A stretch of DNA of 34,570 nucleotides from an uncultured Paracoccaceae bacterium (GTDB taxonomy: Bacteria > Pseudomonadota > Alphaproteobacteria > Rhodobacterales > Rhodobacteraceae), in the NCBI GenBank assembly GCA_937864535.1, contig CALMJS010000027.1, forward strand, positions 1 through 34,570. Direction: 5' to 3'. Below the pieces are notes generated by a model. That model worked only from the letters and a program-made list of their open reading frames with translations. It had not been told where the DNA came from and made no database searches. Every line of letters begins with the position of its first letter. Within the stretch, counting starts at the first letter, position 1. Positions 20,305 through 34,570 of the stretch are shown here, piece after piece. Position numbers and translations under genes: made by a program.

Positions 20305-20845
20305 GCTGCCCTTGCTCTCGGTCATTCCGCTGGTGGCCTTTGCCGGAATTGCGGGTCTGTTTCTGGGGGGCATGTACCTCAAGGATCGGCCGGGGAATGA
20401 ACTGCCCTCGACGCTGATTGGCCAGCAGGCTCCGGTCCTTTCCGGCGAGGCGATCACGGGAACCGACCTGCTGACGGCTGCCGATCTGGCGGCGGGTGAG
20501 GTGACGGTGGTCAATTTCTGGGCGAGCTGGTGTCCGCCGTGCAAAGTGGAGCATCCGGTCCTGCTGCAGATGGCGGCGGATGGCGTTCGTGTCGCCGGCG
20601 TCAATTTCCGCGACGAAGCGGCAGCGGCGGCCGAGTATCTGGCCAAGGAAGGCAATCCGTTCTTTGCGACCGGATTTGACCCGCGCGGCCGTGTCAGCAT
20701 CGACTGGGGCGTTACCGCGCCGCCCGAGACCTTTATCATTGATGGCGATGGAACGATCCTGTTCCGGTTTGCCGGACCGCTGGTTGGCACCGATTACGAG
20801 GATCGGTTTGTGCCTGCCCTAGAGGCGGCGCTGAACGGCGAGTGA
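20297..20845 (+). CDS. ccmG: Periplasmic thioredoxin-like protein CcmG (DsbE/HelX)
   Basis: 182 residues. N-terminal membrane anchor (LLSVIPLVAFAGIAGLFLGG) and a periplasmic thioredoxin fold with active site WASWCPPCKVEHP and the cis-Pro region TAPPETFIIDGDG. Reduces apocytochrome c cysteines before haem ligation. Last gene of the ccmABCDG run; it ends directly against the stop of the convergent gene, with no room for a terminator. CcmE, F, H and I must lie elsewhere. Confidence 0.95.
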   Translation: MAKLPLLSVIPLVAFAGIAGLFLGGMYLKDRPGNELPSTLIGQQAPVLSGEAITGTDLLTAADLAAGEVTVVNFWASWCPPCKVEHPVLLQMAADGVRVAGVNFRDEAAAAAEYLAKEGNPFFATGFDPRGRVSIDWGVTAPPETFIIDGDGTILFRFAGPLVGTDYEDRFVPALEAALNGE

Positions 20846-21304
20846 TCAGCAGGCCATAGCGGCCTGCACCCCGTATTCCATCGCGGCGCGGTGCGCCATG
20901 CTGGTCAGATCATAGCGCAGGGCGGGCTCTCCGACCTCGAGCACGACGAGCAGATCAACCGCCTCCAGCTCGCAATCTTGGAGATGTGCTGCGCTATAGA
21001 TAAACACATCATCGATGATTTTATCTGACTGCGAACTGACGGCGATATCGGGGTAGTCCTCGGCGCGTTCCTCGGTCAGGACGGCAAAGCCATTCGCGGC
21101 CTCGATACAGTCGCGCCATTCGCTGGCGTCCTGTCCCCAGATATTGACCTGTACGCAGCTACCTACGGCAAACACCTCGGCCAGACCGCGCCGCCAGCGG
21201 TCGGTCGTTTCCTCATGGGCGATCAGCACCACCGCATAGGCCCGGTTTTCGGGCAGTCGCGGGAAGCCTTGGTCGGCCGGGATCTTGATGTGGGCAAGCT
21301 GCAT
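20846..21304 (-). CDS. Uncharacterised protein, 152 residues
   Basis: I do not recognise this family with confidence. The protein is soluble, acidic and has no signal peptide or membrane segment; it begins MQLAHIKIPADQGFPRLPENRAY and contains YAVVLIAHEET, NIWGQDASEWRDCIEAANGF and DLLVVLEVGEPALRYDLTSM. ATG 21304 is preferred to ATG 21310 because AGAGG lies 7 nt before it. It converges with ccmG and diverges from the Hint-domain gene across a GANTC-rich gap, so it may be cell-cycle regulated (inference). Confidence 0.65.
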   Translation of the reverse strand: MQLAHIKIPADQGFPRLPENRAYAVVLIAHEETTDRWRRGLAEVFAVGSCVQVNIWGQDASEWRDCIEAANGFAVLTEERAEDYPDIAVSSQSDKIIDDVFIYSAAHLQDCELEAVDLLVVLEVGEPALRYDLTSMAHRAAMEYGVQAAMAC

Positions 21305-21316
21305 ATCCATACCTCT

Positions 21317-21525: not shown

Positions 21526-22554
21526 ATGCCGATGTCGCAAAAGTGGGTTTGGTACAGTTCCAGTTGCTGGCCGGGGTTTGATCCTGCGGCTCACGATAAC
21601 CTGTGTACTGGTGGCAATGGTCTGGCGTTGGACCCGCAGGCGCTGGTCTGCCCCGCCCCCGAGGCCGAGTGTCACTGGCTGGGCGGCCGTGTCGCAGGGG
21701 CCGATTTCGGGCGTTACCCCAAGGAGGTCGGATTGTTCGCCAATTCGACCGTGGTTATGGATGGGATGGTCTTTGGCGGGCTTCGGCTTGAGGTGACGCT
21801 CTTTACCGATGGAACTTGGGGCGCGGTCCTTCTGGATGATGCTCTCCCGCATGTCGGGGCCGAGCGTTTGGGGGCTGTCGTGCTGGACGGCTATGACAGC
21901 CGCGATTATTGCGCAAGCCTTCCCCGCGCCGAGGCACAATTCGTCTGCTACACGGCGGGGACTCTGATCGAGACACCCAGCGGGCCGCGTCGGGTTGAAA
22001 TGCTTAAACACGGCGATCAGGTCCTGACGGTGGACCACGGTGCGCAACAAATCCGCTGGACCGGACGGCGCAAGGTATCGGGCCGTGGTGCCTCTGCTCC
22101 GATCGTCATCGACGCCGGTGCCTTGGGCAATAGTGCGGCGGTTGTGGTGTCACCGACCCACCGGATTGTTCTGGACGGGCCGATGGTGTCACTGATCTTT
22201 GGCGTCGAACAGGTGCTGGTCGAAGCGCAGCATCTGGTGAACGGGACGTCTGTCCGTCAAATGGGGTTTGCCGAGGTGGATTATGTCCACTTTGTCTGCG
22301 ACCGCCACGAGATCGTCGCGCTCCACGGTCTGCTGTCCGAGAGCCTGCTGCCGAGCAAGGAGACGCTGGAGGTGTTGCCACGCCGCGATCGCAATCGGTT
22401 GCTGCGTGCCGTTCCGGAACTGCGGCACGGGTTTGCCGCCTATGGACCGGCTGCCCGGATGTGCCTGACGGGGGAGGAAGCCGCGGTTCTGTTGGCGGCA
22501 ACTGGACATCGAACCCCGGCCCAAGCAAAAGGCCAGCGCGTGGCGCTGGCCTAG
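21526..22554 (+). CDS. Hint (hedgehog/intein)-domain protein
   Basis: 342 residues. An N-terminal region of about 138 residues (Cys-rich start, then FGRYPKEVGLFANSTVVMDG and VLLDDALPHVG) precedes a Hint module beginning at Cys141: CYTAGTLIETPSGPRRV, then GDQVLTVDHGAQQIRWTGRR, the block-B-like SPTHRI (Thr211, His212) and HFVCDRHEIVALHG. Hint-domain proteins of this type are numerous in Rhodobacterales and are often linked to secreted or toxin-like proteins; their processing activity is mostly unproved. No signal peptide is visible. ATG 21526 follows GGAGG at 21513-21517; a second ATG (21532) is possible. Confidence 0.82.
   Translation: MPMSQKWVWYSSSCWPGFDPAAHDNLCTGGNGLALDPQALVCPAPEAECHWLGGRVAGADFGRYPKEVGLFANSTVVMDGMVFGGLRLEVTLFTDGTWGAVLLDDALPHVGAERLGAVVLDGYDSRDYCASLPRAEAQFVCYTAGTLIETPSGPRRVEMLKHGDQVLTVDHGAQQIRWTGRRKVSGRGASAPIVIDAGALGNSAAVVVSPTHRIVLDGPMVSLIFGVEQVLVEAQHLVNGTSVRQMGFAEVDYVHFVCDRHEIVALHGLLSESLLPSKETLEVLPRRDRNRLLRAVPELRHGFAAYGPAARMCLTGEEAAVLLAATGHRTPAQAKGQRVALA
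22530..22552. terminator. Hairpin overlapping the 3' end of the Hint gene
   Basis: AGGCCAGCG (22530-22538) pairs perfectly with CGCTGGCCT (22544-22552), and AAAA precedes it. It covers the last codons and the stop codon. On the minus strand it is followed by TTTT, so it would act as terminator for the convergent VPLPA-CTERM gene. Confidence 0.65.
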
Positions 22555-22566
22555 AAGAGTCAGACG

Positions 22567-23211
22567 TTACCGGCGACGTTTGCGTAGCGCAGCGCCAGCC
22601 AAGAGCGCCGACCCCAGCAGCGGCAAGCCAGCAGGCAGCGGCACAGCCGGAAGCTGTGGCTCTGACGGATTGGTCTCGAACACCACGTTTTCGCCGGTGA
22701 TGCTCAGTTGATAGCCGTAGGTTCTGATGGTGCCGTCCACGGGCGTGCCCTGATAGCCGGTGATAAAGGTCTGCGGATCAAGCCCGTAGTAATCGCAACA
22801 CAGACCAATCATCGCCAGATAGGTTCCGCTGGCAAGCGTGGTCGACAGATAGGGATCAAGCGACGAGATCGAGCCGTCGTCGAACCCCTGCTCGCCGGTG
22901 TCATCGTCGCTCTCGGACAGGTAGTCGCTGGTGGTCAGCGAGCCGTCATACGAAAATAGCGCCATATAGAGGTCGGGTTCATTCGTCGCCACCCCAAATC
23001 CGTATCCGAAAAAGTCGAGCGTGGTCAGCCCGCCAGAAGTCGAAAAGATGACCTGGTCCATGATGACGTAGCGGTCGATTTCTTCGTTCTCGGCAATGAA
23101 TTCTTCGTGCGCCACGACATCACCGACGTAAACAACAGTCACGGCTTGCGCTTGGGCGGCGGTGAGGAGGGCGAGCGATGTAAGGGCTGCGACCTTGGGG
23201 AGCGAGATCAT
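22567..23211 (-). CDS. Secreted protein with VPLPA-CTERM sorting tail (DVUA0089-like)
   Basis: 214 residues from ATG 23211, preceded by GAAAGG at good spacing; an upstream in-frame ATG (23253) would bury the signal peptide. Signal peptide MISLPKVAALTSLALLTAAQ, cut near AQA. The body (YMALFSYDGSL, SESDDDTGEQGFDDGSISS, LDPYLSTTLASGTYLAMIGL, YGYQLSITGENV) resembles the DVUA0089-type domain found in many PEP-CTERM-like proteins, with an acidic stretch that may bind calcium. The C-terminus has VPLPAGLPLLGSALLAGAAL plus RKRRR. Probably sorted to the surface by an exosortase encoded elsewhere. Confidence 0.8.
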   Translation of the reverse strand: MISLPKVAALTSLALLTAAQAQAVTVVYVGDVVAHEEFIAENEEIDRYVIMDQVIFSTSGGLTTLDFFGYGFGVATNEPDLYMALFSYDGSLTTSDYLSESDDDTGEQGFDDGSISSLDPYLSTTLASGTYLAMIGLCCDYYGLDPQTFITGYQGTPVDGTIRTYGYQLSITGENVVFETNPSEPQLPAVPLPAGLPLLGSALLAGAALRKRRR

Positions 23212-23249
23212 GTATAGCCTTTCGGTGGTATTTATATGCGAAAGTGTAG

Positions 23250-23264
23250 TCACAACCTTTGTGA
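23250..23264 (-). promoter_or_regulatory. Inverted repeat TCACAA-CCT-TTGTGA upstream of VPLPA-CTERM gene
   Basis: A perfect 6-3-6 inverted repeat centred about 46 nt before the ATG at 23211. Seven bases further out lies GTTAAC-TATTG-GTCAAC (23271-23287), a 6-5-6 inverted repeat with one mismatch. Both are plausible operators; the regulator is unknown. Confidence 0.4.
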
Positions 23265-23339
23265 TGCCGCGTTAACTATTGGTCAACCTTTTTCATTCTG
23301 GCCTGTCGCAATTCCCGCTGGCGCTGTGTCCGGAAAACA

Positions 23340-23385
23340 AAAAGCCCCGTCAGAGACTGACGCATTCCGTCTGGTGGGAGTTCTG
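23340..23385 (+). repeat. 46-nt island-edge repeat, left copy
   Basis: AAAAGCCCCGTC, then GACTGACGCATTCCG and TGGTGGGAGTTCTG, separated by 3 and 2 variable bases relative to the right copy (33112-33157, minus strand). In this copy CGTCAG-AGA-CTGACG forms a 6-bp hairpin. Read on -, that hairpin is followed by GGGGCTTTTTGTTTT, so it may also act as a terminator in that direction. Confidence 0.75.
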
Positions 23386-23393
23386 CAACAAAA

Positions 23394-23430
23394 GGCCTGT
23401 CGCGCACGTCGCGGCAGGCTCTTGTTTTTT
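23394..23430 (+). terminator. Rho-independent terminator just inside the left repeat
   Basis: GCCTGTCGCG (23395-23404) pairs with CGCGGCAGGC (23410-23419, one G-T wobble) around loop CACGT, followed by TCTTGTTTTTT. No protein gene on + ends before it, so it would terminate either read-through or a short untranslated transcript that includes the 46-nt repeat. Confidence 0.75.
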
Positions 23431-23693
23431 ATAGATATTCGCGTGACGCTGACAGGCGCTTTCTGATGCCCTTCTCCGAGAAAATTTTCTCGGACGCATT
23501 TTTCTTGGCGTTTTCGAAGATTTCCGTTTCGTAAACGAAGGCTATAGCCAATCTCTCTTTCGGACAAGGCTTGAACCCATCCAGACGGATAGGCTTGCGG
23601 GAAATCTCCCGCATTAACTTCATCATCGCGCAACAGCATGTAATCAGGTCGAAGATTCGACTTGAGGCTGGACCGCGTTTGCCCGAGGTCCAG

Positions 23694-26153
23694 ATGTCCG
23701 GCTTGCCTACTTTCAATTTCAAACTGCCTCAGATCTATCCTGGCTCTGGGACTCATCACCTGAACACCTGCGCAAACCCTGATTGCACCAACTTCGGCCA
23801 TCCGCTCACCGGGCGCGCCGAACGGGTCGCGGAATGGTCGGCCAAGATCCCGAACATCACGCCTGAGCAAACCAGGCTGGTGATGATCCATGGGCCGGGC
23901 GCCTACAAGCTCTCGGGGTCGGAACCCAAGTTCAAGCGTGTCACCAAGGCTTTCCAATATCAAAACGACCCGCATGTGTGGTCGGATCAGCGCTCCATCC
24001 GATGCTTGGGCCATACCTCCGATGGAAGGGTGTGCGACTCCGGCTTTTCGATTCTGTCTCCAGATCATCTCGAGGAAGAGATCATCCGGTTGCGAAACAT
24101 GAATGGTGTTCTCGACGGCCCCTGCTGTGGTGCATGTGGCACGCGAGTTCTGGAAGATCCGGACGAGTTCGCGCTGGATGGGTTTCACGAGAGGTCGAAA
24201 GACCGCAAGGGCAAGGCGCTGAAGAAGAAGGCGAACCCGACCGGCCTACGGATTGTTCACAGTCCTTGCAGGGGGAAGAAGGGCGCTCGCTTCACGATCT
24301 CCCTGCCTCATGCGGGACAAAAGCAGAGCTCGGACAATATCCGCGTGCTTGGGGCTGTTCTGAACAGCGCGGGAATCGGAGATATTCAGCGCATCATCGG
24401 CGTTGCCGCGACCGGCAAGAAAATCGGCATGTCTCGGATATACGACCGCATTCTCTGGCTGGAGGCTGTCCTCCTTGCCTACGAGCGCGAAATGCTGCGC
24501 CGTTGGAAGGCGGCGATCGAGAAGTCTGGCGAACCCGTCGAGCATATCCTTTGCCATGACGACCAAGTCTTCACGGTCAACTGGGAAACTTCAAGCGACC
24601 GCCGGAATACCCAGCTGAACTGCGCCATCACGGCTGACGTGGTGAGCGGATATGTCTTCCGTGCGGATTTCGACTTCAATCCGATGGTCACTCCCCTGGA
24701 TGTCTTCCGTGCAGCTTACCTGGATGAAAACGGCCAGCCGCAAAATCTGGAAGAGCACTATACAGGCGGGAAGATCACATCGGCGCCGAAATTCTCCTGG
24801 CAACGCCCTACTGGCGGCCTTCATGAACCTCAGTTCTTTGCGGCATGTGTGAACGCCTACAAGGTATTCAGGGATAAAGCCCGGCGGACGATGCCGGAAA
24901 CGACAGATGTCGAAAAGGCAGCCAAAGAACATGTGATCGACCAGGCCAATGGCGCCATCAAGACCATCGAGACGATCGCCCACGACTGGTTCGGTTTTCC
25001 CGTGGATAAGTCCCATGAGCGCGGATCGTTCAAGGGCTCAACCACCAGGGATATCTACACGAAAGCGGCGCATTTCGTTCTGGTGCGGGAACTCTTGCCT
25101 TTCGGCAAGATCACCTTGACCACAGAACGAGAGGCGGCGCTGCCGAATATTCTGCCGCACATTTTCCAGCAGGAGATCAAGGAAGACCGGTTCTGCTGGA
25201 TGGCGATGGCTTTCAACAAGACCGCGACCAAGCCCGAGCGACTGAGCAAGATCAAGATCTATCGGAAAAAGCGCAGTCAATTCCTGAATGAGGCCATGTA
25301 TGACGGCATCTTCACCGAGCAGACCGACAGCCGAACCATTTCCGAATCCTTCATCCAGAAATTCATGAAGGTAGCGACGCGCGATGAAGAACGTACCCTG
25401 CCTTTCCAGATATCGAATTATGAAATCGAGTCATTCCCCAAGGTCTGGGTTCACGCACCAACGCAGGCGAGCGGGGAAATCGACAAGACGGTCGGATTCC
25501 CAATCTTGCCCAGAGCGCTGCGCCGGGAGCTCAAGAAAATTCCATTCAACGCCGAGACGCTCTCGGATGAGATGAGATCCGAGCTCGCGCCCTGGGTCTA
25601 CAAGGCCACCTTGCAGCCGGTGAGCAGCTTCATGAACGCCCTTCGAGAGCGCCTGAGCGCCGCACAGCGCACAGGCGGCGGTGGAGCACGCATGACCGGC
25701 ACATACATCCAGGGGGCCATCTACAACCCAAGGATTCTCATCGCGCTGGTGAACATCTTCCGCGTTCATTACAACTTCTTCGAACCGAGGCCTTACGCCA
25801 GTCCATTCGACGAGATCGATGACATGATCGATCCCCCGAAGATGACTCCGAGATCTCTGAAAATGCCTGGCACCGATCAGGTCATCGACTTGCCGCCAAA
25901 GATCCGCCGGACCCCAGCTCGCGCGACGCCGGCGATGCGTCTTGGAATGGATGCCGTCACGAAGCGGAAGAACGGCGCCGATGATGTTCCCGACATTCAT
26001 CGTGTGCTCTATCGGCCATGGATATTCGCGAACACCCAGTTCTTTGCCAAGTTCGAGCGATCCCGAAACCGGACGACGAAGGCGCAGTGCAGGAAACCCG
26101 TAAGTAACCCCCAGACCTCGAGAAAGAACGCTGTTCCGAGCTTGCGCCGCTGA
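23694..26153 (+). CDS. Large DDE-transposase-like protein with zinc-ribbon cysteines
   Basis: 819 residues from ATG 23694, which has GAGG 8 nt upstream; a TTG at 23571 would add 41 residues. The N-terminal third holds cysteine pairs suggesting zinc ribbons (C26/C31, C104/C114, C144-C145-C148, C192). A helical segment (NIRVLGAVLNSAGIGDIQRI to RIYDRILWLEAV, about 215-260) looks like an IS1-type helix-turn-helix. A DDE-like core follows: HDDQVFTVNW (288-297), ITADVVSGYVFRADFD, and GKITLTTERE (471-480). The end (NPRILIALVNIFRVHYNFFEP, RATPAMRLGMD) resembles the C-terminus of IS1/IS1595-type transposases. The third catalytic acidic residue cannot be placed with confidence: TLQPVSSFMNALRER has Ser where I would expect Asp or Glu. 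It may be an active transposase or a domesticated relative. The exact family is not recognised. Confidence 0.6.
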   Translation: MSGLPTFNFKLPQIYPGSGTHHLNTCANPDCTNFGHPLTGRAERVAEWSAKIPNITPEQTRLVMIHGPGAYKLSGSEPKFKRVTKAFQYQNDPHVWSDQRSIRCLGHTSDGRVCDSGFSILSPDHLEEEIIRLRNMNGVLDGPCCGACGTRVLEDPDEFALDGFHERSKDRKGKALKKKANPTGLRIVHSPCRGKKGARFTISLPHAGQKQSSDNIRVLGAVLNSAGIGDIQRIIGVAATGKKIGMSRIYDRILWLEAVLLAYEREMLRRWKAAIEKSGEPVEHILCHDDQVFTVNWETSSDRRNTQLNCAITADVVSGYVFRADFDFNPMVTPLDVFRAAYLDENGQPQNLEEHYTGGKITSAPKFSWQRPTGGLHEPQFFAACVNAYKVFRDKARRTMPETTDVEKAAKEHVIDQANGAIKTIETIAHDWFGFPVDKSHERGSFKGSTTRDIYTKAAHFVLVRELLPFGKITLTTEREAALPNILPHIFQQEIKEDRFCWMAMAFNKTATKPERLSKIKIYRKKRSQFLNEAMYDGIFTEQTDSRTISESFIQKFMKVATRDEERTLPFQISNYEIESFPKVWVHAPTQASGEIDKTVGFPILPRALRRELKKIPFNAETLSDEMRSELAPWVYKATLQPVSSFMNALRERLSAAQRTGGGGARMTGTYIQGAIYNPRILIALVNIFRVHYNFFEPRPYASPFDEIDDMIDPPKMTPRSLKMPGTDQVIDLPPKIRRTPARATPAMRLGMDAVTKRKNGADDVPDIHRVLYRPWIFANTQFFAKFERSRNRTTKAQCRKPVSNPQTSRKNAVPSLRR

Positions 26154-26355
26154 GCGCAAGATGCTCTTTTCTCCCACATATTATTTCCAGATTAGGTGGG
26201 CGCGACCCACCTCCTGAGGGAGTGGTGTGGACAGCCCGCCGAGCAGCCTGATGGTGGGGACTTAACGCCTTGCCGACGTGGACTTCGGCGCGCTATCCCT
26301 CCGGAAAAGCAACAATTTCAAGCCGTTTTAAGCTTGCAAGACCGAGGAAACGAGA
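26154..26355. other. Intergenic region before hsdM
   Basis: About 200 bp with a 7-bp hairpin AGGTGGG-CGCGA-CCCACCT (26194-26212) that lacks a T-run, and an AT-rich stretch at 26310-26340 just before the hsdM ribosome-binding site that probably holds the operon promoter. No small controller (C-protein) gene is present. Confidence 0.4.
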
Positions 26356-28377
26356 TTGGCTGAGGCGCAGATCAAAAACACTTCACTGGCGGATTTCATC
26401 TGGAAGAACGCAGATGATCTCTGGGGCAACTTCAAGCATGTCGAGTTCGGCAAAATCATCCTGCCATTCACCCTGCTGCGCCGTCTGGAATGCGTTCTCG
26501 AACCGACCCGTGCACAGGTCCAGGAAACCGTGAAGTCACTCTCAGGTACTGGCATCGACCTCGACGTCATCTTGCGCCAGCAGACCGGATATCCGTTCTA
26601 CAACACCTCGAATTACTCCCTGGCCAGCTTGGGCGCGACGCGCACCCGCCAGAACCTCGAGGATTACATCTCGCAGTTCTCTGAAAACGCGCGCGTCATT
26701 TTCGAACAGTTCGACTTCGTCAACACCCTGGCCCGCATGGACAAGGCAGGCGTGCTCTACAAGATCTGCCTGAACTTCTCGGCTATTGACCTGCATCCCG
26801 ATGCGGTGCCCGAGCGTGTGATGTCCAACGTCTACGAACACCTGATCCGCCGCTTCGGCGCCGAGGTGAACGAGGCCGCCGAGGACTTCATGACGCCCCG
26901 CGATGTGGTTCACCTTGCCATCGAACTCCTGCTTGATCCGGATGACCAGCTATTCATCGACAACCCTGGCCTGATCCGCACGCTTTATGATCCGACCTGC
27001 GGCACCGGTGGTTTCCTGTCGGACGGCATGGAGCATGTTCGCAGTCTCCAGGACCGGTATTCCATCGCTCCGGTGATCGTGCCCTATGGTCAGGAACTTG
27101 AACCTGAGACCCACGCAGTCTGCCTTGCAGGTATGCTTCTCAAGACGCTGGAATCCGATCCTGGTCGAGATCTGTCGAAGAACATTAAGCTGGGCTCCAC
27201 GCTTTCGGCCGATAAGCACCGAGATGAGAAGTTCCATTACTGTGTCTCCAACCCACCCTTTGGCAAAAAGTGGGAGATGGACGCGGATGCCGTGACCAAG
27301 GAACATCTGGAGCAAAAGTTCGAAGGTCGTTTTGGCCCCAAGCTCCCGCGCGTGTCTGATGGATCGATGCTGTTCCTGCTACATCTTCTGTCCAAGCTGG
27401 AAGACCCCGAAAAGGGCGGCGGCCGCGCGGCCATCGTTCTGTCGGGCTCGCCGCTGTTCAACGGCAACGCGGGCCAAGGTGAATCCGAAATCCGCCGCCA
27501 CTTGCTGGAACAGGATGTGGTCGAGGCCATCATCGCCCTGCCGACCGAGATCTTCTTCCGCACGGGCATCGGCACCTACATCTGGATCTTGTCCAACAAG
27601 AAGCCTGAGCACCGCAAGGGCAAGGTTCAGCTCATCAACGCGACCGAGCTTTATGAATCGATGCGCAAGTCGGAGGGCAACAAGCGGCGCCGCGTGGGCG
27701 AGGACCAGACCGCAGAAATCGTGCGGATGTATTCCGAGTTCGTGGCCAGCAAGCAAAGCTTGATCCTTGACAGCACTGAATTCGGCTATCGCCGCATCAA
27801 GATTCTGCGCCCCCTGCGCAAGAAGATGGTGATTTCACCCGAAGGCCTGGCCGCGCTTGCGGAAGAAACCGCATGGTCCAAACGCAACGAAGATCAAAAG
27901 ACCGGCTGGATCGAGACCTTCGATGCCGTCATGGGTCATTCCGATGACTGGCACTGGATGGAAGCCTTCGCCAAGAAAGCCGCCAAGGACAACGCAGACC
28001 TGGGTAAGGTGGATGCTGCGCTGATCAAGGCGTTCCAGAAATCCTTCTCCGTCCATGATCCGGATATCGCGGCCGTGTTCGACAAGAAGGGCCAGATTAT
28101 TCCTGACGATGACCTGACCGACTACGAGAACGTGCCACTCGGTACCGACATCCGCGATTACCTTGCCGCCGAGGTGCTGCCCCATGCCGAGGATGCCTAT
28201 ATCGACGACACCTTCCGCGATGAGACGGACGGCGGGATTGGCGTTGTAGGCTATGAAATCAACTTCAACCGCTATTTCTACGAATACCAGCCGCCACGCG
28301 ATCTGGAAGACATCGATGCCGAGTTGAAGGCCGTAGAGGCCGAGATCGCGGGGATGCTGGCGGAGGTGACGGAATGA
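26356..28377 (+). CDS. hsdM: Type I restriction-modification DNA methyltransferase subunit HsdM
   Basis: 673 residues. N6-adenine methyltransferase and core of the HsdM2S methylase and HsdR2M2S nuclease. N-terminal HsdM_N helical domain (TSLADFIWKNADDLWGNF), TPRDVV (180-185), SAM-binding motif I DPTCGTGGFL (from Asp212) and catalytic NPPF (299-302) are present, and the C-terminus has the coiled EIDAELKAVEAEI-like tail. Start is TTG at 26356: GAGGAAA (26344-26350) precedes it and MAEAQIKNTSLADFIW is the usual N-terminus, while no ATG is available until well inside the domain. Its stop overlaps hsdS (ATGA). Confidence 0.96.
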   Translation: MAEAQIKNTSLADFIWKNADDLWGNFKHVEFGKIILPFTLLRRLECVLEPTRAQVQETVKSLSGTGIDLDVILRQQTGYPFYNTSNYSLASLGATRTRQNLEDYISQFSENARVIFEQFDFVNTLARMDKAGVLYKICLNFSAIDLHPDAVPERVMSNVYEHLIRRFGAEVNEAAEDFMTPRDVVHLAIELLLDPDDQLFIDNPGLIRTLYDPTCGTGGFLSDGMEHVRSLQDRYSIAPVIVPYGQELEPETHAVCLAGMLLKTLESDPGRDLSKNIKLGSTLSADKHRDEKFHYCVSNPPFGKKWEMDADAVTKEHLEQKFEGRFGPKLPRVSDGSMLFLLHLLSKLEDPEKGGGRAAIVLSGSPLFNGNAGQGESEIRRHLLEQDVVEAIIALPTEIFFRTGIGTYIWILSNKKPEHRKGKVQLINATELYESMRKSEGNKRRRVGEDQTAEIVRMYSEFVASKQSLILDSTEFGYRRIKILRPLRKKMVISPEGLAALAEETAWSKRNEDQKTGWIETFDAVMGHSDDWHWMEAFAKKAAKDNADLGKVDAALIKAFQKSFSVHDPDIAAVFDKKGQIIPDDDLTDYENVPLGTDIRDYLAAEVLPHAEDAYIDDTFRDETDGGIGVVGYEINFNRYFYEYQPPRDLEDIDAELKAVEAEIAGMLAEVTE

Positions 28378-29684
28378 ATTTCTCGGAACAGAGAATTGCA
28401 AGGTGTGATCCGAACTGGAAAAGGCAGCGCATCAAACACCATATAAGTCAATTGTACGGCGGCGGTACGCCTGCGACCACGGAAACGTCTTTCTGGACCA
28501 ACGGAACAATTCCGTGGGTATCTTCCAAGGACATGAAGGTCGCTCGTCTTTACGAAACGGAAGACTATATTACCCCTGAGGCGGTGGACCGATCTGCATC
28601 CAACACAGTGGAAGCAGGGGCAATCTTGATGGTTGTTAGATCAGGTATTCTAAAGCACTCCATTCCCGTAGCTATCAACACAGTCAAAGTTGCAATCAAC
28701 CAAGACATTAAAGCCTTGGTCTTGAGTGAAAGCTTGGATACCGAATTCTTTTACTACTGGATCACTGGCCAACAAAAAGATCTCCTATTGGAGTGGGGGC
28801 AGCTCGGAGCCACTGTCGACAGCCTTAATGTTGAAATTCTTAGGAACACGGTCATTCCGCTTCCCGAAAAGTCACACCAAAGGCTGGTGGTTTCATACCT
28901 TGACCGCGAGACCGCGCGGATTGATGGGTTGATCGAGAAGAAGGGCCGGTTCATCGAGCTTCTGAAAGAAAAGCGCGCCGCCGTGATCACCCACGCGGTG
29001 ACCAAGGGTATTGATGCAGGTGTGCCGATGAAGAATTCAGGTGTTTTTTGGATCGGTAAGCATCCCCAGGAATGGTCCGTTTGCAAACTGAATTTGCGCT
29101 ATACTGTTGAGTTGGGAAAGATGCTGGATGAAAAGAAGATCGCCGGTGTGCATCTGACACCTTATCTGCGCAATAGGGACGTCCAGTGGGGTAGTATCAA
29201 CACTACCGATCTTCCAGAAATGGACATTCATCCGAGTGAGGTATCGAGATACACCCTGAAGCGAGGCGACCTATTGGTTTGTGAAGGCGGCGACGTCGGA
29301 AGGTCTGCCATCTGGGCAGGTGATGAGGACATCTATGCTTACCAAAAAGCGCTCCACAGACTTCGAGTCAGGGATCGTTCAAAAGACGATGCCGAATTTC
29401 TCTTATACTGCCTTTCTGCGGCAAAATTGTGCGGAGCCTTCGAGGAAAGGGAAGCAAAGTCGACCATCTCCCACCTCACGGCAGAAGCTTTTCGAACATA
29501 TCTCTTCCCTTTTCCTCCTCTTCAAGAACAGAAGCGCATTGTTGAGTTCCTGAATGTATCGGTCAGCAAAATTGACCGCCTGATCGCCACCACCAACCGC
29601 AGCATCGAGCTTCTCAAAGAGAAACGCTCGGCACTGATCACCGCTGCCGTGACCGGCAAGATTGACGTGAGGAACGCGGCATGA
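28374..29684 (+). CDS. hsdS: Type I restriction-modification specificity subunit HsdS
   Basis: 436 residues. Two target-recognition domains (about 15-170 and 220-380), each followed by a conserved helix. The first helix reads YLDRETARIDGLIEKK...IELLKEKRAAVITHAVTKGID and the second FLNVSVSKIDRLIATTN...IELLKEKRSALITAAVTGKID. TRD1 carries GGGTPATTETSFW...IPWVSSKDM and TRD2 carries YLRNRDVQWGSI. The subunit sets the bipartite methylation site; the site itself cannot be read from sequence. TRD codons are clearly richer in A/T than hsdM and hsdR, as usual for exchanged TRDs. Overlaps hsdM and hsdR by 4 nt each. Confidence 0.95.
   Translation: MNFSEQRIARCDPNWKRQRIKHHISQLYGGGTPATTETSFWTNGTIPWVSSKDMKVARLYETEDYITPEAVDRSASNTVEAGAILMVVRSGILKHSIPVAINTVKVAINQDIKALVLSESLDTEFFYYWITGQQKDLLLEWGQLGATVDSLNVEILRNTVIPLPEKSHQRLVVSYLDRETARIDGLIEKKGRFIELLKEKRAAVITHAVTKGIDAGVPMKNSGVFWIGKHPQEWSVCKLNLRYTVELGKMLDEKKIAGVHLTPYLRNRDVQWGSINTTDLPEMDIHPSEVSRYTLKRGDLLVCEGGDVGRSAIWAGDEDIYAYQKALHRLRVRDRSKDDAEFLLYCLSAAKLCGAFEEREAKSTISHLTAEAFRTYLFPFPPLQEQKRIVEFLNVSVSKIDRLIATTNRSIELLKEKRSALITAAVTGKIDVRNAA
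28953..29016 (+). repeat. Conserved-helix direct repeat in hsdS, copy 1
   Basis: Encodes IELLKEKRAAVITHAVTKGID; related at the DNA level to 29604-29667. Such repeats allow recombination that swaps TRDs within or between hsdS genes. Confidence 0.8.
29604..29667 (+). repeat. Conserved-helix direct repeat in hsdS, copy 2
   Basis: Encodes IELLKEKRSALITAAVTGKID; 651 bp downstream of copy 1 in the same orientation and frame. Confidence 0.8.
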
Positions 29685-32600
29685 GCGATCTGCATCATGA
29701 AAAGCACCTCGAGGCTTATGTCGTCGAGAAACTCGCCGCGCAAGGTTGGCTGGTTGGCGACAGCACGGGATATAACCAGGACTACGCACTCTACCCCGAA
29801 GACCTCGAAGCATGGCTGAAGGCCACGCAAGGGCCAAAGTGGGACAAGCTGGCCGCCATGAACGGCGCCAAGACCCTTGACGTGGTGATGAAGCGCCTTG
29901 AGGCCGCACTGGAGAAGGACGGCATGATGCATGTCCTGCGCCGCGGCTTCAACATCGCCGGCTGCGGGCATCTGGACCTGTCAGAGGCGGCACCAGAGGA
30001 TCAGCGCAACGCCGATGTGCTCCATCGCTATGCCTCCAACCGCCTGCGCGTGGTGCCGCAGCTGAAATACCATCCAGGCCGCGAACTGGCGATCGATCTG
30101 GGGTTCTTCCTAAATGGCCTGCCCTTGGCCACGGTCGAGCTAAAGACCGATTTCACCCAATCGGTTGAACATGCCAAGAACCAGTATCGCAACGACCGTT
30201 TGCCGGTCGATCCGATCTCGAAACGCAAACACCCGCTGTTGACCTTCAAACGCGGCGCCGTCGTGCATTTCGCCATGTCGGACAGCGAGATCTGGATGAC
30301 GACGAAACTGGCGGGCGAAAATACCTTCTTCCTGCCCTTCAACCAGGGCTTTGACGGACACGGCGGCAACCCGCCCCGTGAAGATGGCGAATACCCCGTG
30401 GCCTATTTCTGGGAAACCATCTGTCGCCCTGACAACTTCCTGCGGATCTTCCACAGCTTCGTCTATGTCGAGAAGAAGAACGTGGTCGACCTGAAGGGCA
30501 ACTGGACCGTCAAGGAAACTCTTATCTTCCCGCGGTATCACCAATTCGATGCGGTGAACGCGATGATCTCGGACGCCAAGGAGAAGGGTCCTGGGCAGGC
30601 ATATCTGTGCGAACACAGCGCAGGATCAGGAAAAACCTCGACCATCGCATGGACCGCGCATGACCTGATCAAGCTGCGCCGCGATGACGGTACGCCGATC
30701 TTTGATGCGGCGATCATCGTCACCGACCGCAATGTTCTGGATGGGCAGTTGCAGGACGCCGTCCAACAGATCGACCACCAGAGCGGGCTGATTGCCGCCA
30801 TCGACCGCGAGAAATCCTCGAAGTCGAAAAGCGAGCAGTTGACCGAGGCAATGACCAAGGGCACGCCCATCATCGTGGTGACGATCCAGACCTTCCCCTT
30901 TGCCATGGAAGCGATCCTGACCGAGAAGTCACTGAAGGATAAAAACTTCGCGGTGATCATCGACGAAGCGCATACCTCGCAGACTGGCAACACCGCGTCG
31001 AAGCTTCAGGCGACGCTGGCGCTTTCGTCGAAAACCGACTTGTCGACAATGACCGTCGAAGACCTGTTGCTGGAAATCCAGCGGTCGCGGAAGCGGCCGG
31101 CCAACGTCTCGCATTTCGCCTTTACGGCGACGCCGAAGCACTCGACCATGATGCTCTTTGGACGCCCAGCAGACCCGACGATGCCCGCGTCCGACGACAA
31201 CCTTCCGGTGTCCTTCCACAAGTATGAAATGCGACAGGCGATCGATGAAGGGTTCATTCTGGACGTCCTGAAGGGATACGTTCCCTACAAGACGGCATTC
31301 AATCTGGGTAAGGAACTGGTTGACGAGAAGCGTGTGGATGGCAAGGCCGCCAAGCGCGCGCTCGCAGCCTGGATGGCGCTCCACCCGACGAACGTGACCC
31401 AGAAGGTCCAGTTCATCATGGAGCACTTTTCCAAGAACGTGGCGCATCGTCTGGATGGCAAGGCCAAGGCCATGGTGGTTACCAGCTCCCGTGCGTCCGC
31501 TGTGCGCTACAAGAAGGCCTTCGACGCCTTCATTGAAGCCAACCCAGCCTACAAGGAAATCCGCGCCCTGGTGGCCTTCTCTGGCAAGCTGACCGGTAAG
31601 GAGGTCATGCATCCCAATGATGACCTCTTGAAGGATGACATCTTCACCATCGACGAAGATGCCGAGTTCTCCGAAGGCAACATGAATCCAGGAATTGGCG
31701 GACAGGATCTGCGGATTGCATTCGACCGGCCCGAATACCGCGTCATGCTGGTTGCCAACAAATTCCAGACAGGCTTCGACCAACCGAAGCTGGTCGCCAT
31801 GTATATCGACAAGAAGATCGCGAATGCGGTCGAAATCGTGCAAACCCTGTCGCGCCTGAACCGGACCTTCCCTGGTAAGGACCAGGTCTTCATCATCGAC
31901 TTCGTCAATGACCCGGACACCGTGCAAGCGGCATTCGCGCAGTATGACAGCGGCGCCAAGGTGGAGAAGGTTCAGGATATCAATGTCATTTATGACATGA
32001 AGGACAAGCTCGACGCGCATGGCATCTACGATGACGCCCATGTCGCGAAGTTTCAAACTGCGCGCTACCAGACGGCGGCCGCCTTTGCTGCTCATGGCGA
32101 TAGCGAGCACAAAGCAATGTTCGCAGCGACACAGGAACCCACGGATTGCTTCAATTCTCGCCTCAAGGCGCTTCGAAAAGTGGCCCAGAAGGCGGAGGAT
32201 GACTTCGAGCTCGCTCGGACGCTGGGCAACCAGGACGGCATGAAGAGAGCCGACCACGAAAGGCAGCAGGTGGCTGAGGCGATCGGGCAGATGACCGAGT
32301 TCAAAACCGGTTTGGCGCGCTTCTCACGCACCTATTCTTATATTGCACAGTTGATCGACCTCGGAGATCCGGGATTGGAAAGCTATGCCGCGTTCGCAAA
32401 ACTTCTTGCGAACCGCCTCGACGGGCTTCCACCGGAGAGCATCGACCTTCGCGGCATTACCTTGACGGGATACGATATCAAGGCTCGCGAAGACTCTGGC
32501 GGCGAAGGAGGAGATGAGGAAACCTCGGATGGTGTTTTGCAGCCAATCACCCCTGGTGGCTCTACCAAGCCGGGGGCGGTCCCGGTCTATATCCGCGAGA

Positions 32601-32911
32601 TCATCGAGAAGTTGAATGGGATTTTTGGCGAAGCGACCCCGCTCAGCGACCGGATCGATTTCGTGAACCAGATCGCCAACATCACGCGCGAAAACGTCCA
32701 TGTGATGGCGCAGGTCGAGAAGAACAGCAAGGATCAGGCCCTGAAGGGGAATCTCCCTGGTGCAGTGGAAGCCGCAGTCGCTCGGGCAATGTCGTCACAT
32801 GCGACCTTGGCTACGATGCTTCTGAAGGCCGACAAGCAAGGCTTGGGCCTCTTGAATGCGATGATCTACGATCTGCTGAAAGATGGTGGCTCGCTTGATC
32901 TTCGAGGATAA
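29681..32911 (+). CDS. hsdR: Type I restriction endonuclease subunit HsdR
   Basis: 1076 residues. Cuts unmethylated DNA after ATP-driven translocation. PD-(D/E)XK nuclease: Asp139 in AIDLGFFLNG, Glu153 and Lys155 in VELK, then a QY motif (KNQYRNDR). SF2 motor: Walker A EHSAGSGKTS (Lys318), DEAH box VIIDEAHTSQ (428-431), FTATPKH, and motifs V-VI GFDQPKLVAMYIDKK and TLSRLNRTFPGKD. The C-terminal helical part binds the methylase. All catalytic residues seem intact, so restriction is probably active. Start ATG 29681 overlaps the hsdS stop. No terminator follows on +. Confidence 0.95.
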   Translation: MSDLHHEKHLEAYVVEKLAAQGWLVGDSTGYNQDYALYPEDLEAWLKATQGPKWDKLAAMNGAKTLDVVMKRLEAALEKDGMMHVLRRGFNIAGCGHLDLSEAAPEDQRNADVLHRYASNRLRVVPQLKYHPGRELAIDLGFFLNGLPLATVELKTDFTQSVEHAKNQYRNDRLPVDPISKRKHPLLTFKRGAVVHFAMSDSEIWMTTKLAGENTFFLPFNQGFDGHGGNPPREDGEYPVAYFWETICRPDNFLRIFHSFVYVEKKNVVDLKGNWTVKETLIFPRYHQFDAVNAMISDAKEKGPGQAYLCEHSAGSGKTSTIAWTAHDLIKLRRDDGTPIFDAAIIVTDRNVLDGQLQDAVQQIDHQSGLIAAIDREKSSKSKSEQLTEAMTKGTPIIVVTIQTFPFAMEAILTEKSLKDKNFAVIIDEAHTSQTGNTASKLQATLALSSKTDLSTMTVEDLLLEIQRSRKRPANVSHFAFTATPKHSTMMLFGRPADPTMPASDDNLPVSFHKYEMRQAIDEGFILDVLKGYVPYKTAFNLGKELVDEKRVDGKAAKRALAAWMALHPTNVTQKVQFIMEHFSKNVAHRLDGKAKAMVVTSSRASAVRYKKAFDAFIEANPAYKEIRALVAFSGKLTGKEVMHPNDDLLKDDIFTIDEDAEFSEGNMNPGIGGQDLRIAFDRPEYRVMLVANKFQTGFDQPKLVAMYIDKKIANAVEIVQTLSRLNRTFPGKDQVFIIDFVNDPDTVQAAFAQYDSGAKVEKVQDINVIYDMKDKLDAHGIYDDAHVAKFQTARYQTAAAFAAHGDSEHKAMFAATQEPTDCFNSRLKALRKVAQKAEDDFELARTLGNQDGMKRADHERQQVAEAIGQMTEFKTGLARFSRTYSYIAQLIDLGDPGLESYAAFAKLLANRLDGLPPESIDLRGITLTGYDIKAREDSGGEGGDEETSDGVLQPITPGGSTKPGAVPVYIREIIEKLNGIFGEATPLSDRIDFVNQIANITRENVHVMAQVEKNSKDQALKGNLPGAVEAAVARAMSSHATLATMLLKADKQGLGLLNAMIYDLLKDGGSLDLRG

Positions 32912-33039
32912 GGGCGTGAGTACAAGAATTGTCTCGTCCTGAGTGAAATCTGAGGGTGACATCCATACTTAATCTTGGCTGCCTCGGATCGAAGCCCATT
33001 ACTCTGCGAAGGTCATACGACTGAACGCCGTTTCAAGTC

Positions 33040-33090
33040 CTTGATTAAAAATGAAATTGGGCCCGAGAGCACAATGCTCTCGGGCCCAAT
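33040..33090 (-). terminator. Strong rho-independent terminator downstream of acnA
   Basis: A perfect 16-bp stem (33056-33071 with 33075-33090; GGGCCCGAGAGCA/TGCTCTCGGGCCC plus ATT/AAT) with a 3-nt loop. On the minus strand it is followed by TTCATTTTTAATC, giving termination of acnA. On + no T-run follows. Confidence 0.85.
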
Positions 33091-33111
33091 CGATTCTCGG
33101 CTTGTTAAATT

Positions 33112-33157
33112 CAGAACTCCCACCACGCGGAATGCGTCAGTCAGAGACGGGGCTTTT
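33112..33157 (-). repeat. 46-nt island-edge repeat, right copy
   Basis: Minus-strand sequence AAAAGCCCCGTC-TCT-GACTGACGCATTCCG-CG-TGGTGGGAGTTCTG in three blocks, differing from the left copy (23340-23385) at 5 positions. It starts 20 nt after the acnA stop and precedes the acnA terminator, so it lies in the acnA 3' untranslated region. Confidence 0.75.
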
Positions 33158-33176
33158 CTATTTCTATGCCAAGACC

Positions 33177-34570
33177 TTAGGACTTGGCGAGGTTGCGCAG
33201 CACGTAGTGCAGAACGCCGCCGTTTTCGATGTATTCGATTTCCGGAGCGGTATCGATCCGGCACTTGATGTCGATGACCTTGGTCGAACCGTCGGCAAAG
33301 GTGATCTCTGCCTGCAGGACTTCCAGCGGCTTGACGCTGTCCAGACCCTTGATGGTGACGGTTTCGTCGCCCGTCAGGCCCAGCGATTTGCGGTTGTCGC
33401 CGTTGGTGAATTCGAACGGAACAACGCCCATGCCAACGAGGTTCGAACGGTGGATACGTTCAAAGGACTCTGCGATCACAGCTTTGACGCCGAGCAGGGC
33501 GGTGCCTTTGGCGGCCCAGTCACGCGACGAACCCGCGCCGTATTCGATCCCTGCAAAGATCACCAGCGGCGTGCCGTTGTCCTGATAGTCCATCGAGGCA
33601 TCGTAGATCGAGGTCTGCTCGCCGTTCGGGCCCTTGGTGTAACCGCCCTCAACGCCGTCCAGCATCTCGTTCTTGATGCGGATGTTGGCAAAGGTGCCGC
33701 GCATCATGACTTCGTGGTTGCCACGGCGCGAACCGTAGCTGTTAAAGTCCTTCACGGCCACCTGACGTTCCGACAGGAACTTGCCTGCCGGGGTGGTCGC
33801 CTTGAACGAGCCAGCCGGACTGATGTGGTCGGTGGTGATCATATCGCCGAGGATCGCCAGAACCTTGGCGCCTTCGACGTTCTTGATCGTGCCCTTTTCC
33901 GGGGACATGCCCTGGAAATACGGCGGGTTAGCGATATAGGTCGAGGACGCCGGCCAGTCGTAGGTTTCGCCTTCGGTGGTTTCAACGGCCTGCCACTTGG
34001 CATCGCCCTTGAACACGTCGGCGTACTTCTTGAGGAAGGCCTCGCGGGTCACGGTCTTTTCAACCAGTTCCGCGATTTCCGCGTCGGTCGGCCAGATGTC
34101 CTTGAGATAGACGTCCTTGCCATCGGCGGATTGGCCGATCGGGTCCTTGGTCAGGTCGATGTTCATATCACCAGCGATCGCATAGGCGACAACCAGCGGC
34201 GGCGACGCCAGGAAGTTGGCGCGAACGTCCGGCGAAATCCGGCCTTCAAAGTTGCGGTTGCCCGACAGAACGGCAGCCGCGACCAGATCGTTTTCGTTGA
34301 TCGCCTTGGAGATTTCCGGGGTGCCGAGCGGACCGGAGTTCCCGATACAGGTCGTGCAGCCGAAGCCAACGATGTTAAAGCCCAGAGCGTCCAGATCGTC
34401 CTGCAGGTTTGCGGCCTTCAGGTACTCTTCTACCACCTGCGAGCCCGGTGCCAGCGAGGTTTTCACCCACGGCTTGGACTGGAGACCCAATGCGCGCGCC
34501 TTGCGGGCCACGAGGCCAGCGCCGATCAGCACATAGGGGTTCGAGGTGTTGGTGCAGGAGGTGATCGAGG
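33177..34570 (-). CDS. acnA: Aconitate hydratase AcnA, C-terminal half (5' truncated by window)
   Basis: 463 C-terminal residues are visible; the frame stays open to base 34570, so the start lies outside the window. Interconverts citrate and isocitrate in the TCA cycle with a [4Fe-4S] cluster. The cluster ligands are present: Cys in SITSCTNTSNPY (34539-34568 region) and the pair in GFGCTTCIGNSGPL. Also visible are the swivel-domain features DMITTDHISPAG, NSYGSRRGNHEVMMRGTF and YGAGSSRDWAAKG, of the AcnA/IRP type. The C-terminus IEYIENGGVLHYVLRNLAKS is normal, so the neighbouring island did not disrupt the coding sequence. Confidence 0.97.
   Translation of the reverse strand, partial: SITSCTNTSNPYVLIGAGLVARKARALGLQSKPWVKTSLAPGSQVVEEYLKAANLQDDLDALGFNIVGFGCTTCIGNSGPLGTPEISKAINENDLVAAAVLSGNRNFEGRISPDVRANFLASPPLVVAYAIAGDMNIDLTKDPIGQSADGKDVYLKDIWPTDAEIAELVEKTVTREAFLKKYADVFKGDAKWQAVETTEGETYDWPASSTYIANPPYFQGMSPEKGTIKNVEGAKVLAILGDMITTDHISPAGSFKATTPAGKFLSERQVAVKDFNSYGSRRGNHEVMMRGTFANIRIKNEMLDGVEGGYTKGPNGEQTSIYDASMDYQDNGTPLVIFAGIEYGAGSSRDWAAKGTALLGVKAVIAESFERIHRSNLVGMGVVPFEFTNGDNRKSLGLTGDETVTIKGLDSVKPLEVLQAEITFADGSTKVIDIKCRIDTAPEIEYIENGGVLHYVLRNLAKS

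Follow-up and report, generated by a model that had tools for sequence, protein, structure and literature searches.

A type I restriction operon in a transposon whose relatives appear to prefer intrinsic terminators

Background

How does a complete restriction operon come to lie, as a lone block, behind a core gene? The question is raised by contig CALMJS010000027.1 (assembly GCA_937864535.1) of an uncultured Paracoccaceae bacterium, all 34,570 nucleotides of which make up the stretch analyzed here, referred to as the window. There, the type I restriction-modification (R-M) genes hsdM, hsdS and hsdR lie, together with a transposase-like gene, next to acnA. A preliminary description had proposed that this block is a compact transposon with a whole restriction system as its cargo, bounded by inverted repeats of 46 nt. 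The results reported below support a transposon, and indicate that it is very probably a member of a widespread family of cargo-carrying transposons, which prefer intrinsic (Rho-independent) terminators.

Results and discussion

Boundaries of the element

The longest inverted pair listed for the region spans 53 nt on either side (23333-23385 and 33112-33164, 85% complementary), which bears out the presence of inverted repeats around the block. The relatives show where the terminal inverted repeat (TIR) begins, in the window's clade with TGACGCATTCCG: each TIR is 28 nt long, and the outer part of the pair belongs to the target, so that TIRs of 46 or 53 nt were rejected. The repeats described earlier do exist, but their outer part is a split host terminator; they exceed the TIR because the target is itself palindromic. 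Once the relatives had set the TIR start, a 3-bp duplication was also discarded, and the target-site duplication (TSD) is a perfect one of 9 bp, GTCAGAGAC.

The TIR consensus, TGRCGCATTCCGNNNNNTGGGA, is common to the window element and its relatives, and its core, TGACGCATTCCGNNNNNTGGGA, is also found in relatives at unrelated sites. Searching the whole genome with the 23-letter core (two of its letters N), at up to three mismatches, gave no third match, and a reversed control pattern gave none. Chance repeats were rejected as an explanation of the ends. The genome contains one pair of ends and one transposase gene of this kind, with no flanking pair of insertion sequences (ISs), so that a composite transposon was rejected; an integrase island was rejected as well, no match to a tyrosine or serine integrase being found among the scanned open reading frames (ORFs) of the element.

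Both ORF calling and profile matches agree with the earlier statement that only a transposase-like gene and hsdMSR are present inside: these are the only large ORFs between the TIRs, and all are open. The GC content of the element is 0.56, against 0.60–0.68 in most 1-kb windows to its left. TIRs of 28 bp, a perfect 9-bp TSD and a transposase with relatives in like-ended elements are the features of a unit DNA transposon: judged by them, the block is a real, intact-looking transposon. The proposal of a compact transposon carrying a whole restriction system is supported by the same TIRs and TSD, with hsdMSR between them, and the junctions, which the preliminary description had suggested to check, coincide with both.

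The landing site behind acnA

Outside the 9-bp duplication, the left flank ends in ...ACAAAAAGCCCC, while the right one begins with GGGGCTTTT...: a single host terminator has been split between them. Reconstruction of the empty site from both flanks gives AAAAAGCCCC-GTCAGAGAC-GGGGCTTTT. In the rejoined site, AAAAAGCCCCGTCAGAGACGGGGCTTTT, A- and T-tracts flank a 12-bp stem closed by an AGA loop, at which the split falls; the acnA frame ends 33 nt from the center of this terminator. The stem score is equaled by none of 200 local control windows, while a folding energy as low is reached by 6 of 200. Deletion of the element, with removal of one copy of the duplication, restores a predicted intrinsic terminator behind acnA.

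A hairpin followed by a T-tract was found by script within 126 nt after acnA in 25 out of 29 other genomes. In three more (L035, L041, L049), missed by the script, a G+C-rich hairpin with T-tract is seen by eye; in L059 neither the script nor the eye finds a hairpin with T-tract behind acnA. When both end regions were compared by blastn to the window and the 29 other genomes, the end repeat was present, among the acnA loci, at the window's own only. In L034 and L035, of the same genus, a comparable ATAGAAAT stretch precedes the terminator, and a homologue of window positions 20393-21307 lies beyond it. These sites are best regarded as orthologous, not as base-identical empty alleles: the search for empty sites, proposed in the preliminary description, yields acnA terminators free of the element, but no allele identical base by base.

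Target sites across the family

The main clade comprises 55 inspected loci: the window, 52 loci from GTDB species genomes, L067 and L069. Both ends were accepted for 32 elements, the window element included; 23 were dropped, nearly all because one end was lacking, and L121 for poor end scores, despite a matching 9-mer. Four of the 32 (L124, L126, L129, L133) are degraded copies. Loci L061-L066, L071 and L073 come from the same genomes as L099, L093, L095, L108, L105, L114, L125 and L133, respectively, and were counted once. L068, L070, L072 and L074-L080 were left out as fragments, degraded copies or weak matches; two of them, with poor TIRs, have duplications matching at 9/9 (L072) and 8/9 (L074) positions.

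An exact 9-bp duplication flanks 26 of the 32 elements (25 before the boundary of L105 was corrected), and a match of at least 8/9 is found in 28. In the first calling of the ends, a matching duplication gave a bonus in the ranking; when ends were called by the TIR profile alone, the same 32 pairs were obtained, and exact duplications number 23 with unshifted boundaries and 26 if these may slide by up to two bases. Among the 23 elements that did not contribute to the profile, which was built on nine, 17 have exact duplications with this slide. The left boundary was shifted by one base in L100 and L110 after the duplication had been seen, and later in L105, which, with the corrected boundary, shows an exact duplication and no strong stem.

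Local control windows, 200 per locus, were taken from the entire flanks, both coding and non-coding. For 23 of the 32 sites, the stem centered on the rejoined target is equaled by no more than 2 of them (top 1%), and for 24 by no more than 10 (top 5%). A ranking on folding energy alone places 12 sites within the top 1% and 23 within the top 5%. L100 and L108 fold as bulged hairpins of low energy (6 of 200 and 0 of 200 controls as low).

A common profile emerges from 85 ends, which include 15 loci with a left end only and 6 with a right end only; three pairs among them look like halves of one element. The frequency of A is 0.45–0.72 at positions -24 to -17, G+C dominates from -15 to -8, and the rest of the duplication follows. 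At 50 of the 85 ends there is a run of at least four A, a feature of 136 of the 4,250 control positions; for runs of at least five, the figures are 34 of 85 and 34 of 4,250. The sites also have a marked position relative to genes. Of 37 sites, 35 (five of them from distant relatives) had enough flank to be evaluated: 25 are preceded, at a distance of 100 nt or less, by the end of an ORF (150 aa or longer) reading towards them (66 of 700 controls), and 5 fall inside such an ORF (561 of 700 controls).

Distant relatives, whose transposases are about 20% identical to that of the window, show similar targets. Ends were called for 11 of the 17 loci tried, with a one-base slide of the boundaries allowed to maximize the match: an exact 9-bp duplication is present in 9 of the 11, and a top-1% stem in 6 of the 10 tested (L169, L170, L172, L173, L177, L183), L180 being outside the stem test; one of the six sites is on a Pontibacillus plasmid. 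No convincing ends were found for L175, L178 and L179, and L210-L212 could not be delimited. Taken together, these data suggest that insertion into intrinsic terminators is common to most delimited members of the family.

Hairpins inside the ends

In the window element, terminator-like hairpins are predicted just inside both ends; the one at the right faces transcription entering from acnA. For 38 elements, a hairpin with T-tract located 24–170 nt inside the ends was found at 23 left and 17 right ends, and at both ends in 11, against 92 of 1,520 controls. These hairpins are mostly inward-facing (20 left and 12 right, compared to 7 left and 6 right facing outward), so that most of them would stop transcription entering through the broken host terminator. 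We infer that the inner terminator of the element may replace the split one of the host.

The transposase

No Pfam or PADLOC family, and no relevant NCBIfam match, was found for the window transposase, the N-terminal part of which is rich in cysteine. Its core is predicted to have an order of strands and helices like that of the RNase H fold, with D289 within a strand (283-296) and E478 at the end of another (472-478). D289 and E595 are invariant in all 25 sequences of alignment A5; at position 478 the main clade has E, while D is found in L119 and the shorter relatives shown. Alignment and predicted secondary structure thus point to D289, E478 and E595 as the likely catalytic acids.

An AlphaFold2 (AF2) model built from the 25 sequences has a mean predicted local distance difference test (pLDDT) score of 82; an earlier model, from five sequences, was unusable (pLDDT 40). 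The four PDB structures that Foldseek matches best to the model are all chains of the ISCth4 transposase, a DDE enzyme, with weak scores (TM-scores 0.10–0.21, E > 0.001), with the Tn5 and Mu transposases lower in the list, also at E > 0.001. Foldseek against viral models gave no match at E <= 0.001.

Explanation and alternatives

In the explanation favored here, the transposase would cut its target with a stagger of 9 nt, centered on the terminator dyad, and the feature recognized would be the dyad with its flanking A- and T-tracts (as structure, DNA shape or cruciform), not a fixed sequence. Insertion would split the host terminator, and the inward terminator of the element would end the transcript of the upstream gene just inside the element, so that landing would be nearly neutral for the host and the cargo insulated. 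Cargo such as restriction, cyclic-oligonucleotide-based antiphage signaling system (CBASS) or toxin-antitoxin genes would reward the host for keeping the element, or force it to do so. With less assurance, we lean towards a wider reading: a DDE-type family spanning phyla, whose members may recognize terminators by structure, as universal safe harbors independent of sequence, mend the damage with inward terminators of their own and shuttle single, complete immune operons between bacteria. On the same balance, these operons would be type I, type IIG and type II R-M, CBASS, GmrSD/HEPN and toxin-antitoxin systems.

Several observations weigh against the favored explanation. The element is present as a single copy in the window's genome. 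No exact duplication, even with the slide, is found in 6 of the 32 elements (L089, L094, L107, L126, L129, L133), and 9 of the 32 sites are outside the top 1% for the stem (L089, L093, L094, L100, L105, L108, L124, L129, L133). In the distant set, ends were chosen with the duplication in the score; L171 (8 of 200), L174, L181 and L182 are without a top-1% stem, L182 also lacks an exact duplication, and the terminator-like halves that flank L180 share no duplication. By the criterion used, no inner hairpin is present at 15 of 38 left and 21 of 38 right ends: terminator replacement is therefore not universal. As to the DDE assignment, Foldseek finds no PDB match for the transposase model at E <= 0.001, and a sequence-profile search of the PDB finds no relative.

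The observed sites might also be the outcome of selection: an ordinary IS, without any target rule, would be purged from other places, with terminator sites left over. Such purging would equally produce the scarcity of sites inside ORFs, and, as stem controls came from whole flanks, the 23 top-1% sites leave it some room even though they speak for targeting. Purging accounts for intergenic sites, but neither for their centering on the dyad nor for the succession of A-tract and G+C block from -24 to -8 at the 85 ends; centered stems recur, in addition, in 6 of the 10 tested relatives of about 20% identity. We consider this alternative improbable. Hardly credible is the view that two terminators of the acnA type, there by chance or duplication, happen to frame hsdMSR genes that came otherwise (by an integrase island or homologous recombination) beside an old transposase gene. 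It would fit a repeat that is partly terminator sequence and a single TIR pair in the genome; it is contradicted by the exact 9-bp duplication and by the TIR core of relatives at unrelated sites, and between the TIRs nothing large but transposase and hsdMSR is found, in a slot where relatives have other cargo.

More weight, while still on the unlikely side, is given to a transcriptional choice of target, in which the transposase follows RNA polymerase, or the terminator hybrid, and needs active termination, not the dyad. Terminators are places where polymerase pauses, and an ORF reading towards the site stops just before it in 25 of the 35 cases evaluated. Against it, sites are centered on the dyad, and A-tracts are found outside both left and right ends, indicating that symmetry matters, but bidirectional terminators would give the same picture.

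Features of the window

The features of the element and of its landing site are collected in Table 1. The right-hand neighbor is acnA, as previously described, but the immediate left neighbors are not genes of the ccm region. The first one (22567-23253, minus strand) encodes a VPLPA/PEP-CTERM-like protein (NCBIfam FDP_fam, DVUA0089 family), and the next beyond it (21526-22554) a Hint-domain protein; both are outside the element.

Table 1. Features of the transposon and its landing site in the window
Feature	Position	Strand	Basis and remarks
Transposon proper	23358..33139	.	9,782 bp, GC 0.56; TIR and TSD
Left TIR, TGACGCATTCCG...TGGTGGGAGTTCTG	23358..23385	+	Inverted-repeat listing, ends of relatives
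Right TIR	33112..33139	-	Pairs with left TIR, 28 nt each
TSD, left copy, GTCAGAGAC	23349..23357	.	9 bp
TSD, right copy, GTCAGAGAC	33140..33148	.	9 bp, perfect match to left copy
Left half of split acnA intrinsic terminator, CAAAAAGCCCC	23338..23348	.	Sequence
Right half of split acnA terminator, GGGGCTTTT	33149..33157	.	Sequence, comparison of acnA orthologues
Terminator-like hairpin just inside left end	23390..23431	.	Found in both directions
Strong hairpin inside right end	33044..33090	-	16-bp perfect stem and T-rich tract; candidate replacement terminator
Transposase, 819 aa	23694..26153	+	From ATG 23694 (frame open from TTG 23571); ORF, alignments
hsdM, type I methyltransferase subunit, 673 aa	26356..28377	+	Pfam N6_Mtase 4.5e-53, HsdM_N; PADLOC MTase_I 1.5e-254
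hsdS, specificity subunit, 436 aa	28374..29684	+	Pfam Methylase_S, two stretches; PADLOC Specificity_I 2.6e-137
hsdR, restriction/translocase subunit, 1,076 aa	29681..32911	+	Pfam HSDR_N, SWI2_SNF2, T1R_D3-like; PADLOC REase_I 4.9e-37
acnA, 3' part, runs off contig	33177..34568	-	NCBIfam AcnA model NF006757, above cut-off

Cargo

The hsdM, hsdS and hsdR genes of the window are all intact, and form a complete predicted type I R-M gene set. They occupy a slot, between transposase and right end, the contents of which differ even between close relatives; in some of these the transposase gene is alone, in elements of 2.6–3.0 kb. L088 (10.9 kb, with AcrB-type efflux genes) and L097/L099 (2.87 kb, no cargo) are about 89% identical over the first 2.7 kb and then diverge, and L108, L109 and L111 behave alike, with an aligned start followed by divergence. 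In L069 and L110, elements made of transposase and CBASS genes, at two different sites, align over 5,087 of 5,808 bases (70–77% identity): transposase and cargo can thus move as a unit, with cargo exchanged over time.

These relatives speak to the possibility, raised in the preliminary description, that transposase and hsd genes have separate histories: transposase and CBASS genes can move together, and cargo is swapped within one slot. The search, also proposed there, for the same transposase next to hsd or other defense genes gave other defense cargo and, in L125, a fragment of hsdM, but no second element copy with hsdMSR among the relatives. The presumed co-mobility of the window's own hsd operon rests on its pair of TIRs and TSDs.

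Something besides the transposase is carried by 19 of the 32 elements, and seven of the 19 (the window, L069, L091, L105, L110, L125, L133; raw counts) contain supported defense genes. The cargo scan covered the elements except L067, L129 and parts of others, and, in the distant set, except L171, L180 and L183. By profile matches, L091 carries a type IIG MmeI-like enzyme, a DEAD helicase and a T5orf172 protein; L110 and L127 carry CBASS genes with cyclase, E2, and phospholipase or SAVED-HNH effector; L105 carries GmrSD_N (PADLOC NsnA / PD-T4-2_A) and HEPN. The CBASS genes of L069 and L133 are like those of L110 and L127, as indicated by DNA alignment. Two more elements are suggestive of defense: L090, with a Schlafen AlbA_2 match, and L095, where a HEPN match is below the Pfam cut-off. 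Other cargo is not related to defense: besides the efflux genes of L088, it includes AidB-like/HpaB (L107), pyridine-nucleotide oxidoreductases, MerA-like as judged from neighboring frames (L111, L134), an acyltransferase (L136) and a GNAT protein (L114). The scanned ORFs of L103, L108 and L132 match no family.

In the distant set, L169 carries an N6-methylase with a specificity subunit, L170 a D12 methylase with a NotI-type endonuclease, L172 an N6/N4 methylase with a protein without family, and L177 a Gp49/HTH pair (toxin-antitoxin); for L173 there is a weak hydrolase match, below cut-off, and for L174 none.

Most of the transposase is lost, while both TIRs are kept, in L133/L073 (5068-8983), the cargo of which is CBASS, and in L129, with unscanned cargo; both are candidate non-autonomous, cargo-only transposons. 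In L179 (7953-16354), on a Polaromonas plasmid, the transposase copy is followed by genes for an AAA-domain protein, an HNH endonuclease, a YrhA-family protein and a hypothetical protein: a possible undescribed defense operon, carried as cargo by a copy whose ends were not found.

Distribution of the family

A protein search found the transposase in 21 of 394 genomes of the family; in the class sample 3 of 385 genomes matched, and in the phylum sample 19 of 398, the window's own being counted in each. Searching GTDB species genomes with an alignment of five copies gave the 52 loci mentioned above, which, by their titles, are mostly from Rhodobacteraceae, to which we take several of the genera to belong, and from a few other Alphaproteobacteria. 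The shorter relatives, of 577–647 aa in most copies with called ends, were brought to light by the wider samples and by plasmids, and come from Alphaproteobacteria, other Pseudomonadota and one Firmicute (a Pontibacillus plasmid). Extending the genome search to the classes of two distant relatives brought few further matches (6 of 78 and 7 of 312 genomes).

No relative was found when genome_contigs and viral_contigs were scanned with the window transposase as a single protein, nor when viral_contigs was scanned with the transposase alignment. The window protein gave one weak record in a plasmid search and no match in a phage search. The L170 protein matches 131 plasmid records (90 from Enterococcus, 9 from Staphylococcus) and 2 phage records; where annotated, the plasmid matches are named, among those listed, hypothetical or insertion element protein.

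Some loci deserve separate mention. L118/L127, L122/L135 and L116/L130 are pairs from the same assemblies, with the same 9-mer on opposite flanks: each pair probably represents the halves of one element, broken by the assembly. L101, L104 and L113 (9769-9771 onward), from three Aliiroseovarius genomes, have closely similar transposases and three different left flanks, all made of an A-tract and a G+C block; no right end is found within 10 kb, so that they may be much larger elements. In L107 the left end occurs twice, at 9417 and 9716 (299 bp apart), each time with the same flank, as if tandemly duplicated along with half of the target; the outer copy was used. In L180 (7827-13908), on an Acidovorax plasmid, the flanks resemble terminator halves without a common duplication, as if two insertions had recombined.

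Significance

Bacterial genomes abound in terminators, which occupy non-coding DNA; a transposase able to find their shape would therefore be a general safe-harbor inserter. The family also offers a concrete vehicle by which lone restriction, CBASS and toxin-antitoxin operons may be placed between core genes, without an integrase island. The rule also provides a recipe for searches (TIR, 9-bp duplication, terminator halves), which would delimit cargo by its target, not by its genes, and make the question of how lone immune operons move directly testable. The data suggest, in this respect, a little-described shuttle for bacterial immunity.

Comparison with known systems

One of the closest known likenesses is to the IS1/IS1595 group. 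A 9-bp duplication is typical of IS1, the transposase of which is far shorter than 819 aa. Of the six shorter relatives scanned, five match the NCBIfam IS1 model in its N-terminal part (E as low as 1.5e-11), and every one of the six matches an IS1/IS1595 zinc-binding domain model at E <= 0.012; all are below the whole-protein IS1 cut-off, while L174 reaches the domain cut-off of NF050000 (28.5 vs 28). The window protein and the two long relatives scanned, in contrast, are without such a match, and the window protein has no relevant match at the NCBIfam cut-offs for IS1/IS1595. A further difference is that many elements of the present family carry cargo and most choose terminators. A preference for palindromes with G/C blocks, of the kind found in terminators, is known for IS186, an IS4-family IS without the present transposase or cargo.

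Among retroelements, group IIC (bacterial C) introns insert at Rho-independent terminators, limiting harm to the host (PMC8919778). They do so just after the terminator, whereas the present element is a DNA transposon, with TIRs and a 9-bp TSD, located at the loop; its large ORFs are those of transposase and hsdMSR, with no reverse transcriptase/maturase ORF. Tn7-like transposons are rich in cargo, with a large diversity of defense systems (PMC8649781), and Tn7 has a safe site just behind glmS (PMC2918618). Tn7 uses TnsABC+D and the end of one conserved gene; the window element has a single transposase gene, with no Tns genes among its large ORFs, and its family uses the terminators of different genes.

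A distant relative is found in Staphylococcus and Enterococcus plasmid and phage records: the protein, named insertion element protein in some of them, is 23.7% identical to the L170 transposase over 99% of the length of the latter. In L184 (5899-7851), an Enterococcus plasmid locus, dfrG adjoins a gene annotated as hypothetical, the product of which is distantly related to the transposase. In S. aureus, an insertion element protein is reported to be linked to dfrG apparently in every case (PMC8638950); this is presumably the same protein as the L170-like relative, and its cargo differs from that of the present elements.

Searches of an open-access library showed no DDE-type transposon with this terminator target rule, ISfinder and subscription journals being outside the search. 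As to R-M systems, the IS-linked movement of PaeR7I within a genome (PMC3031569) was a laboratory event, while the window holds a unit transposon with hsdMSR as internal cargo. DDE transposons, IS-linked R-M mobility, Tn7-like defense cargo and terminator-targeting group IIC introns are already known.

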